A stretch of 64,000 nt of DNA from Chrysoperla carnea (Eukaryota; Arthropoda; Insecta; Neuroptera; Chrysopidae). Below, in pieces: positions 3,701 through 7,927 of the stretch. The stretch lies in assembly GCF_905475395.1 (NCBI RefSeq), contig NC_058338.1:7082935-7146934 (forward strand). The letters are read 5' to 3'. The stretch's first letter is position 1, and each line of letters begins with the position of its first letter. The notes below the pieces were generated by a model that was not told the origin of the DNA, did not search any database, and worked only from the letters and a program-made list of their open reading frames with translations. A program made the position numbers and the translations under genes.

Positions 3701-3935
3701 ACACAAACATTTCTTTTTACTTACACCATCGACTAAGATTACTGATAACTTCGTATACTCAACTCACTTACTCACAGATGACAAGACTATATTTCGCAAT
3801 ATAAATTTTTTTTAAATTCGATTTCTGAAAACAAATAATCAGGCTACAAAGTATGCAGACAGTAAATAACTGAAATAAATTTCTTAAAATTATATAATTA
3901 TAAAACATCTGTATATATATATATAATAATACCAA
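772..3935. other. Intergenic AT-rich DNA, no gene recognised
   Basis: About 3.1 kb left of the RpL5 3' end. Only short unconvincing ORFs occur, with no recognisable domain, and I found no structured repeat. Confidence 0.6.
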
Positions 3936-3941: not shown

Positions 3942-3976
3942 AAATTAGGTAATTACATAACATAATTACAAAAAAA

Positions 3977-6900
3977 TTATGGTTCTGCTTGACCAACTTC
4001 CATTTTTTGTAAAAATGATGCTTTCTTCTGTGCAACACGATTCTTACGTTCAGATAATGTAAGTTTAGCACGATTCCAGCGTTTCTGTTTATGATCTTTA
4101 GGATATTCTTTCTTGGGTGCTGGTTTAGCAACTGGATCAGCTCGAATTAATTCATGTGCTTTTTTGTATAATGCTTCAACCTGAAAATAATTTAAAAACA
4201 TGTAAAAAATGGTACTTAAGTTAGCGATTTAATATTAGTATACAAGGTCTATGTGTATATTAAGTCCTAGGGTCAGGAGTTGAAATTATTTCAGGCAGGT
4301 TGGAAATTTGTGAAAGGTTGTTGTCAAAGTCATGCCTACCAACTTTTTCCTTTACAATAATTTTTATAGTCGGCGGTTTCTCTCTCTCAGAGGAGCAGAA
4401 CAAGTTTTAATTTCCGGAAATTCAAAGAACAAGAAACTCAATAAAAGCTGGTTCCCTGAATAAAAATTTTTCTCGGTAAAAGTTGTTAGCCTTTGAAGAA
4501 TCTGGCACTGCAAACTCCTGGCCCTTGACTTAATTGAACTGTTTGTAAATGTATAAAATAATTTATTCGAAATACAATAAACTACCTTAATTCATTCACA
4601 GTTTTTAATGTTGTCCAACTGCGGACACGGCAAGAGTATTTAAAACTCAAGCAGTAATTTTTAGTTGGACGTAAACCGACACAGGAATTTTTACGCAAAA
4701 ATATCACAATTTATTTCGTGGAGTCGTGGAATTTTGGATGTTATTCAGTACAAACTTTGAACTGAAGTCATTCATATTAAACTGTCTGAAACTATAATTC
4801 TGACGTACTCAAAGCCCCCAATTTTATAATTAAAAAAAAAACCGTTTAACTTAGTGATTGACTTCGGATTTTTATACCAACTATACACTCTACGGTACAT
4901 GCATACCAAGGGAAGTGAAAAATTGTATATATGATTAAAACTTACTTGATCAGCTGCGATTCCTTTCTTGATATACTGACTGAATTGTTTTTTGAATGCT
5001 TCTGGATCATTCTCTTCTAATTCTTTCATATATTCGGCAACGTGGACACCAAAAATGTGCTTACGGTGTACTTCAGCATTGAATGATTTTGATTCAGCAT
5101 CATAGCCAGGGAAACGTTTTGTTGAATGTGGAATATTTAAACCACCATCAACAGCTCCTTTCATTGCACCGAAAATACGAGCTCCAGTTGTTGTTCGGCT
5201 TAATCCAACATCAAGGTAACACCTATAAAAGTAAACATTTGGATGAAATTTAATAAATTCGGTATATTTTGATTTGAAATTTTTATATTTTGGAGATAAA
5301 TTGATCAGAGACACCTTATAATCAAATAAGTGAATGTTTCGAAATAGAATTTTAGGAAAATAATATCGTAAAACACGATATTATTCCCAGACAATAAAAT
5401 TTCTAATACATTCGATCAGATGACGCGCATGTGTCAAAAAATCATCATATAAATGAATAGAGAAATACACAATAGTAGGCGAGCCCAAGAGGGAATTAGG
5501 GGAGTGGCTTAAGCGCGTCAGATATATGGACGTTCCTTCGATTTTCTTAAGTATCTCCACCAAATATTAGACATACCGACGGACGCAACATTTTTTAAAA
5601 AAAACCATTTTTTTGGAATCAGGGATCCTCAAAACGTATATTTCCGTTGAAAAACCACGATATCGATTTTTTTTTCGATGAATATCGAATAAAAATTATA
5701 GTAAATGGGTCTTTCAAGTGACGTTATAATCGCTTTTGACTGAATATTTTGTTAATTTTAAAGAATTCAAAGCTGAAATTTTAGTTTAAAAAAAATAATG
5801 AAATTACCTGAAAGCAGCTGGACCATTTTCGACTGGTTCGACAATATATTCATCACCAGTAACATCAGTGGTTCCAGTATATAATTTATCCAAACCAAGT
5901 TTCTTCAATAATCTACGTGCTAACAATAAACCGGTACAATATGCAGCTGCATAATTGGTTAAACCAACTTGAATGCCATAACGTGGCAATTCATGCGAAT
6001 ATGCGGCACATAAAATTTTATCACCTTCAATGCGAGAGTAAGCTACCTAGAAATTACAGAAAAATTCATTTTAATATCCAACGAATATTTACATTTGGAA
6101 TTTATGGATTTAAGAGGTTTAATTATCAGAGACACGTTATAATCAAATTGACGAATGTTTCGAAATAGAATCCTTGGATAATAATAACGTAAAACACGAT
6201 ATCATTCCCGTTAATAAAATTTCTAATACATTCGATCAGATGACGCGCATGTGTCAGAATTTACATCATATAAATTTTATAGAAGGTGAAAATCTTTTAC
6301 TTGAAGTTTTTAGTTTAACCTTTTAGCTGTAGTTCTTTTGTCTGTAGAAAAGAATGATTTCGGAATCAAAGATTTTCCACGTTTTTTGCAATTTACTCCA
6401 AAATTATTCATTTTAGAGAAAAAATAGGTTGAGTCCAAGGTTTCGGGCGTAAAAGGACCCCGCAATATAAGATAGGAAAATGACTTTCTGTGAAACTTTT
6501 CTTACCCTTGGATCGTTATTATTTAAAGCTTGCACAGCCACAAAAATACGTTTACATTAAATATTTTGCGCTCAATAAAAACGCAGCACTATCTATATAT
6601 CAGATATACAGAGTGTTCTGTTATTGACTGCAGATCGTCATCTTGCAAAATAAGCTCATAACGACGAAGAAAAAAGTTATTTTCCACTTTTGGATCTGAA
6701 GCCTACTTTGCGAGATAATTAACAAAATAAATTAATATATCTTTATCGAATCACAGTTCAATAAAATTTTGAATGAAACCAATAAAACACTACTTAAAGA
6801 GAGGATGTGTTTTATCATAGTGGAAGGCGTCTCTAAATGCAAAATTATTACCAAAAGAACTCTATTTGGCTACTTATGTTATTATAAAAACTAACCCATT

Positions 6901-7927
6901 AAAACCTACACTGCTTTTTTTTGTAAATTAAGTGTTGTACGCAACCTATCGTGCGATATCACATACCGTAAGCATTAATTTAACAAAACGGACCAATCCA
7001 CACCTACTAATTTAATGAATTTGAAAGGTCTGTGAATTCATAAATCTTTCTATTTCCCATAGCCACATCTTCCGCATCAGGCCTCAAATGGAAATTTGGT
7101 ATAGAGCTTTTCCATTTATCTTGACAAGCTTAATTTAGTGGTACAATTTTCTGCTATCAATAACAGAACACCCTGTATATGGTGGCTCTGCACCACCACA
7201 CGTATTAATTAAAAAAAAAGTTGTATTTTTAAACCATCAAATATATCTGATATAGTGTTGCACTTTTATTGAGCACAAGTGTACATGCTTGTGTACGAAT
7301 AACCTTATTGTAAAAATACTTATATCAAGAAAGATTTTAACTATTATTCGAAGGAACTCATCAATAAATCACTTAACCTAACCTAAATTTAAAAATTATA
7401 AACATGTGCCTTTTGTACATGCACTTTTGGCAAGAACTTTTACGGAAAACTTAAATTTAGCAAAAAGAAAGTTTAGAAAATTTAATACACTATCAACAAA
7501 TACATTTTCACAAAACAAAATGAAATAATAAAGTACTTACTTGGCAGGTGATATCCTTATTTGACAATCGTACAACCAAACGATATTTTGGAGTGTTGTA
7601 TTTGTTCTTGTCTTGCGACGTTAACCTTTTACGAGCATAGTAATCAGTTTTACCTTCACGACGCCTCTTAAACTTAACTTGATAACGTTTGAAATATTGT
7701 TTATTTTTCACTACTTTCACGAAACCCTAGAAAGTAAAAACGAAAAACCTTTTAATTTAAGAAAACAATGTACAACGTTTACAGCATGAAATTAGGTTTT
7801 CAAAAAAAAAATCTATCGGCATCTTAATAATTTAAACATTAATTTCGATGTTAAACATTGTTAATGAATGTATTTAATTATTTTGTAATTAATAATTTTA
7901 ATATTTTTAATGATTTACACTCACCAT
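3977..7927 (-). CDS. RpL5: Ribosomal protein L5 (uL18), five coding exons
   Basis: Large-subunit ribosomal protein that binds 5S rRNA and, with RpL11, forms the 5S RNP. Coding exons on the minus strand: 7925-7927 (ATG only), 7541-7726, 5808-6046, 4946-5222 and 3977-4180, all with GT-AG introns. The conceptual protein is 302 aa, against about 299 in Drosophila. It opens [20 protein letters not shown] and contains the family hallmarks [46 protein letters not shown] and [12 protein letters not shown], then a lysine-rich tail ending VGQAEP. The start codon is followed at once by GTGAGT, so intron 1 directly follows ATG, a layout shared with vertebrate RPL5. Introns 2 and 3 each carry a matching 144-nt element that looks like a snoRNA, and intron 2 also holds a mariner-type MITE. 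Identification is secure. Confidence 0.97.
5305..5448 (-). ncRNA. Candidate box C/D snoRNA, copy 1, in RpL5 intron 3
   Basis: On the RpL5 strand it begins with a perfect C box (ATGATGA, 5442-5448) and ends with a D box (CTGA, 5305-5308) 82 nt before the exon 4 acceptor, the spacing typical of intron-encoded C/D snoRNAs. A D'-like CTGA lies at 5416-5419. The 11 nt just before it, after one spacer base, read CATGCGCGTCA, complementary to the universal 28S rRNA segment TGACGCGCATG. A strong AT-rich hairpin lies between D' and D. A second copy of equal length sits in intron 2 at nearly the same distance from its acceptor. I saw no terminal stem and no clear C' box. Confidence 0.5.
6126..6269 (-). 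ncRNA. Candidate box C/D snoRNA, copy 2, in RpL5 intron 2
   Basis: Paralogue of the intron 3 element. It also spans 144 nt between the C-like box (ATGATGT, 6263-6269, last base off consensus) and the D box CTGA (6126-6129), which is 79 nt before the exon 3 acceptor. The guide-like stretch CATGCGCGTCA and the CTGA after it (6236-6239) are unchanged from copy 1, while the flanks and the internal hairpin differ by scattered substitutions that mostly keep pairing. Only homology, position and motifs support it. Confidence 0.45.
6607..7177. mobile_element. Mariner-type MITE in RpL5 intron 2
   Basis: About 570 bp bounded by inverted ends: TACAGAGTGTTCTGTTATTG at the left and its complement CAATAACAGAACACCCTGTA at the right, with one mismatch. 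TA flanks both sides (6605-6606 and 7178-7179), the target site used by Tc1/mariner elements. No transposase ORF, so non-autonomous. Confidence 0.75.

Follow-up and report, generated by a model that had tools for sequence, protein, structure and literature searches.

A duplicated, SNORD10-like box C/D snoRNA candidate in two introns of an insect RpL5 gene, with a predicted target in 28S rRNA

Two consecutive introns of the RpL5 gene of Chrysoperla carnea each hold a related 144-nt element that starts at a C box and ends at CTGA, which raises the question of whether the two are copies of one small nucleolar RNA and, if so, which position of which RNA they would guide. The window, by which we mean the whole stretch of 64,000 nucleotides analysed here, is part of a 559-Mb assembly, and the host gene lies on its minus strand. 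Translation and a Pfam search place the five coding exons of RpL5 at 7925-7927, 7541-7726, 5808-6046, 4946-5222 and 3975-4180 (span 3975..7927), encoding a protein of 302 aa with a Ribosomal_L5e match at an E-value of 1.9e-86; among the solved chains listed for this product, the top one is the 60S L5 of 4v6w, which we take to be the Drosophila ribosome. Element A (5305..5448) sits in intron 3 (5223-5807) and element B (6126..6269) in intron 2 (6047-7540), both on the minus strand and hence in the sense orientation within a ribosomal-protein gene.

The two elements share one layout. In A, the C box ATGATGA (5442..5448, 7/7 against RTGATGA) precedes a 12-nt guide, CATGCGCGTCAT (5420..5431), a D' box CTGA (5416..5419), a long imperfect hairpin (5332..5413), a possible C' box TTGATTA (5319..5325) and the terminal D box CTGA (5305..5308). 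Element B, the second copy, repeats the series with a C box ATGATGT (6263..6269, 6/7), the same guide (6240..6251), a D' box CTGA (6236..6239), a long hairpin weaker than that of A (6153..6233), a possible C' box TTGATTA (6140..6146) and a D box CTGA (6126..6129). Both copies therefore show the box features of the class, with a C box close to the 5′ end and CUGA as the D box close to the 3′ end. The C' box, recognized by eye, is poor in both (5/7), as is often the case for this box in C/D snoRNAs. A preliminary description of this DNA had given the coordinates, the strand, the lengths of 144 nt each, the C boxes and the internal and terminal CTGA motifs correctly, and it had also correctly placed CATGCGCGTCA one base ahead of the internal CTGA in both elements and the D boxes of A and B at 82 and 79 nt, respectively, from their acceptors.

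Box C/D snoRNAs are described as carrying 10-21 nt of antisense directly upstream of D or D', with the target nucleotide at D+5 (a passage of PMC11542601). In A and B alike, the 12 nt before D' pair unbroken with 28S GTGACGCGCATG, through 11 Watson-Crick pairs plus a G-U at D'+1, which puts the D+5 position on the C of GTGAC. This site, which had been assumed in the preliminary description to be universal, is indeed present in the insect's own 28S, where a 31-nt 28S pattern matches exactly at 20 places in the genome. How far the match exceeds chance depends on the measure. When pairs with the insect rRNA are counted, 11 of the window's 335 CTGA boxes, the two elements included, score at least as high as A and B, four of them higher, and by base-pair count alone the match does not go beyond chance. 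When the same 335 boxes are ranked by duplex energy, A and B come first and second (-20.4 kcal/mol; the next box reaches -17.9), which is more than chance. Both rankings cover 18S, 5.8S and 28S to 41 nt past the target C, within rough boundaries that include ITS2.

In pattern searches of the whole genome, the guide followed by its box, ATGCGCGTCAN{0,3}CTGA, occurs at two places, which are A and B, against 2.3 expected from the composition of the window and none in the reversed control; with a C box added in front, the same two places are found against 0.06 expected, again with none in the reversed control, and these two count as one event if they are duplicates. The figures bear on the simplest alternative, that there is no snoRNA at this locus and that a piece of intron with a chance stretch of 28S antisense was duplicated. 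The box motifs are short, the pair count of A and B is reached by other CTGA boxes, guide and box together occur about as often as composition predicts, and neither copy shows a terminal stem, all of which speaks for such an accident. Against it stand a C box, guide and D' at an expectation of 0.06 in the sense strand of a ribosomal-protein gene, a D+5 position that lies exactly on a site methylated in human, and a guide block that matches the human guide for that very site, and we consider it very unlikely. The reading with the best support is a box C/D guide, duplicated, whose target is the 28S C of GTGAC.

To name the target position, we superimposed 12 human modified positions (3701 to 3841, from a passage of PMC5597630) as a rigid constellation on the insect 28S. 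All 12 fit when the target is 3808, while the next register fits 9 of 12 and 200 shuffles fit 8.9 on average and 11 at most. Seven yeast positions (from a passage of PMC5199042) fit 7/7 with the target at 2304, and since shuffles also reach 7 only the human set discriminates. The predicted target of A and B is thus the 28S C equivalent to human C3808. A guide of the SNORD88/snR76 kind, which acts at 28S Cm3701, was considered and rejected, as the human constellation puts the target at 3808 and not at 3701; the yeast positions concur (2304), which is weak on its own. In human 28S, Cm3808 (old number 3787) has a methylation score of 0.9 and is assigned to SNORD10 (PMC5597630). Cm2304 does not appear in the yeast 25S table passage of PMC5199042. 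The passage of PMC11542601 that tabulates plant sites, and gives yeast and human sites only where they are shared with plants, likewise contains no Arabidopsis equivalent.

The stretch before the terminal D differs between the copies (AAGGTGTCT and AACGTGTCT), and a scan against U6 and 7202 nt of rDNA (from 18S to 51 nt past the target, with spacers and a few insertion bases) found no rRNA pairing near D common to A and B among the top four pairings per box. Within the same top four, the best pairings differ between copies, and the two that are common to both start at D+8 and D+10, farther from D than a normal guide would lie. Near the target, candidate accessory pairing besides the guide is limited to 8-nt runs, one of which, 72 nt upstream of the target C in 28S, is common to both copies and includes G-U pairs. 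As a separate observation, the two 28S copies that we examined (L016 and L018) break off 43-45 nt past the target C, each at a foreign sequence that differs from the one in the other copy. We take this break point to be approximately the insertion site of R1-type elements, in which case the methylation target would presumably sit between the R2 and R1 insertion sites.

Since the human position belongs to SNORD10, we compared the elements with the Rfam family (RF01290). Scanned alone, both elements have SNORD10 as the family with the lowest E-value (A, 0.058, among 16 weak rows; B, 0.39, among 4), but at 17.5 bits for A and 14.2 for B they stay far from the gathering cut-off of 37, and the window holds no match at the gathering score. 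By bits, SNORD10 comes top for B and is outscored by three families for A, and over the 4.1 kb searched the E-values are 1.4 and 9.7, which is not significant. A genome-wide search with RF01290 returned three other weak places (best, 22.2 bits) and listed neither A nor B, with 132 of 4383 candidates scored, and 12 of 14 control prokaryotes also gave weak matches; for these reasons the Rfam score taken by itself is not significant. What carries weight is the content of the match, namely the guide block, the 5′ layout, the length of the model and the documented 28S target. The Rfam consensus CAUGCGUGUCAUCUGA and the corresponding CAUGCGCGUCAUCUGA of the elements are identical in 15 of 16 positions of guide and D' box, and the guide block and the 5′ layout are the only parts that can be aligned. 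In the literature searched, we recognized no report of an insect counterpart of this guide at the level of titles and the first lines of abstracts.

The single difference in the block is informative when U6 is considered. Human U6 Cm77 is also assigned to SNORD10 (a passage of PMC7960923), and the insect U6 keeps ATGACACGCAA in the one copy examined (L007, of 16 matches). At the differing position the SNORD10 guide has a U, which pairs with G in 28S and with A in U6, whereas A and B have a C, which pairs only with G. The guide of A and B consequently reaches -21.8 kcal/mol with 28S and -12.2 kcal/mol with U6, the latter interrupted by a mismatch inside the duplex, while the SNORD10 guide reaches -20.9 with 28S and an unbroken -16.1 kcal/mol with U6. 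As the C leaves the duplex with 28S complete and breaks the one with U6, the version in A and B most likely serves 28S only. The same interruption, together with the Rfam score, is why we do not file the two elements as members of the SNORD10 family. It could still be argued that they serve U6 C77 too, or even mainly, as the U6 site is intact in the copy examined and a pairing of five bases from D'+1 to D'+5 with four more beyond the one mismatch can form; weighed against the loss from -16.1 to -12.2 kcal/mol caused by the guide base, this seems improbable. A separate guide for U6 C77 was sought with the genome pattern TGCGTGTCAN{0,3}CTGA, within whose reach guides with a degenerate D box or more mismatches do not fall; it gave 6 places, where the reversed control gave 3 and base composition predicts 15. 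No C box lies in the 130 nt upstream of any of the 6, and none of them is a convincing other U6 guide. As a tentative history, rather less probable than even, a SNORD10-type guide may have moved to RpL5 or arisen there, been duplicated and become a 28S-only guide by one base, with the methylation of U6 C77 being absent or made in some other way.

At their lowest energy, A and B fold with 41 pairs apiece, of which 34 are common. The hairpin that separates D' from the possible C' accounts for 25 of these; 4 others take up part of the guide, which these folds bury, and 5 form a GACAC/GTGTC helix. This last helix (5431-5435 with 5310-5314 in A, and the same bases in B) lies just inside the C and D boxes, an unusual place for a C/D snoRNA. 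None of the 34 common pairs has changed on both sides in a compensatory way, and each fold has 7 pairs that the other lacks. The fold of the whole element has a z-score of -3.33 in A (0 of 200 shuffles as good) and -1.74 in B (13 of 200); for the 3′ 109 nt the values are -4.29 (0 of 200) and -0.95 (32 of 200). The oddities pointed out in the preliminary description, the length, the hairpin and the lack of a terminal stem, are real: pairing between the 30 nt before and the 40 nt after the elements is not above chance, with 60% and 69% of 300 shuffles doing equally well. A terminal stem that closes C and D is usual in this class without being universal, since external intronic stems exist; one may lie farther out in the intron here.

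Two alternatives draw on this structure. One takes A and B to be mainly cis-acting intron structure that affects the splicing of RpL5, to which a long hairpin close to the acceptors in two introns would lend itself; it leaves the kept C and D boxes and the 28S match unexplained, and we find it highly improbable. The other is a variant compatible with two copies of one snoRNA, in which only one copy, more likely A, is working and B is a decaying duplicate that keeps its guide. The full C box of A and its stronger fold point that way, while B retains guide, D' and D and leaves 32 of the 34 common base pairs unchanged, the other two being still paired as G-U. Such a decay of B is a real possibility, if an unlikely one.

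That A and B are copies is clear from their alignment, in which 127 of 143 aligned bases are identical over 145 columns, including an identical block of 44 nt within which lie the guide, D' and the first part of the hairpin. The preliminary description had the guide unchanged although its surroundings differ, which holds only in part, given this block and the overall identity. The flanks on the 3′ side, up to the acceptor, are related as well (score 58.5, against a mean of 37.0 and a maximum of 57.0 in 300 shuffles), whereas no relation shows in the 100 nt on the 5′ side (25.5; mean of 300 shuffles, 27.3). What was duplicated most likely extended from the element in the direction of the intron end, and the similar distances to the acceptors would accordingly be inherited; the two distances had been put forward as a sign of intronic snoRNAs, and the figures stand while their value as independent evidence does not. 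A BLAST search of A against the 559-Mb genome, which skips very common words, returned A and B only, so that the sequence is not seen as an ordinary repeat scattered over unrelated loci. The initial interpretation as a duplicated C/D snoRNA is supported by these results; the link to SNORD10, the lost U6 pairing and the related 3′ flanks formed no part of it.

The introns of RpL5 hold other structures besides. Intron 2 contains nested inverted repeats between window positions 6566 and 7278, whose arms pair 6604-6634 with 7150-7180 (90%) and 6566-6592 with 7252-7278 (85%). A MITE-like repeat dispersed in the genome forms the inner part; it has at least 88 match rows, the window itself included and 40 of 2727 candidates scored, and many of these rows end at query positions 45-46 and 619-621 and are often split in two; the outer arms may be part of an older element. 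In intron 4, a stretch on the minus strand (4534-4679) forms a double hairpin that resembles an H/ACA snoRNA, in which ACATTA may be the hinge and an ACA stands at the end, both recognized by eye. It is single copy in the genome by BLAST, the fold of 4520-4700 has a z-score of -2.75 (3 of 200 shuffles as good), and it gives a weak full-length match to the Rfam family snopsi18S-1854 (21.9 bits, E 2.9, cut-off 40), for which a genome-wide family search listed nothing with 45 of 117055 candidates scored. The insect 18S reads TTGAATGATTTAGT, with a G at the place of the U that we take to be the target of this family, which counts against that identity.

Taken together, we put at about 0.8 the probability that a single intronic box C/D snoRNA is present here in two copies, A and B, and that it guides the equivalent of 28S C3808, is SNORD10-like and most likely serves 28S only. 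The spliced introns of RpL5 would be trimmed to RNAs of about 144 nt, which would assemble with fibrillarin, the long hairpin between D' and C' bringing the distant boxes together. The antisense stretch before D' would then pair with its 28S site, and the C that faces the fifth base ahead of D' would be 2'-O-methylated. The guide module would be that of SNORD10, possibly through common descent, with C for U fitting 28S and disrupting U6. If this is true, the locus provides an insect guide for a 28S position methylated in human, where the guide of the same position also serves the spliceosome; one guide base would part a two-target from a one-target guide, and the evolution of shared rRNA/snRNA guides becomes testable.

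Finally, we compared A and B with known systems. SNORD88 and yeast snR76 (28S Cm3701 and 25S Cm2197) are likewise C/D guides acting in the same region of 28S, but in human numbering they act 107 nt upstream of the predicted target. Box C/D snoRNAs are typically of 70-100 nt. In D. melanogaster, snoRNAs are hosted by 27 cytoplasmic ribosomal-protein genes (a passage of PMC2246290), the same kind of host as here; compared with those intronic snoRNAs, the length of A and B and their internal hairpin are unusual. The closest of the known systems is SNORD10 (mgU6-77, RF01290). Human SNORD10 sits in EIF4A1, unlike the insect elements, which are present in two copies in RpL5. A and B further differ from it in a guide base that gives away good pairing with U6 and in the rest of their sequence, which cannot be convincingly aligned; their score stays far under the cut-off, and no terminal stem was found. 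They resemble it in the block CAUGCG(U/C)GUCAU-CUGA, in having the guide at D', close to the 5′ end and following the C box, in length (139 model positions against 144 nt) and in the 28S target predicted for them, which is the position of human Cm3808.
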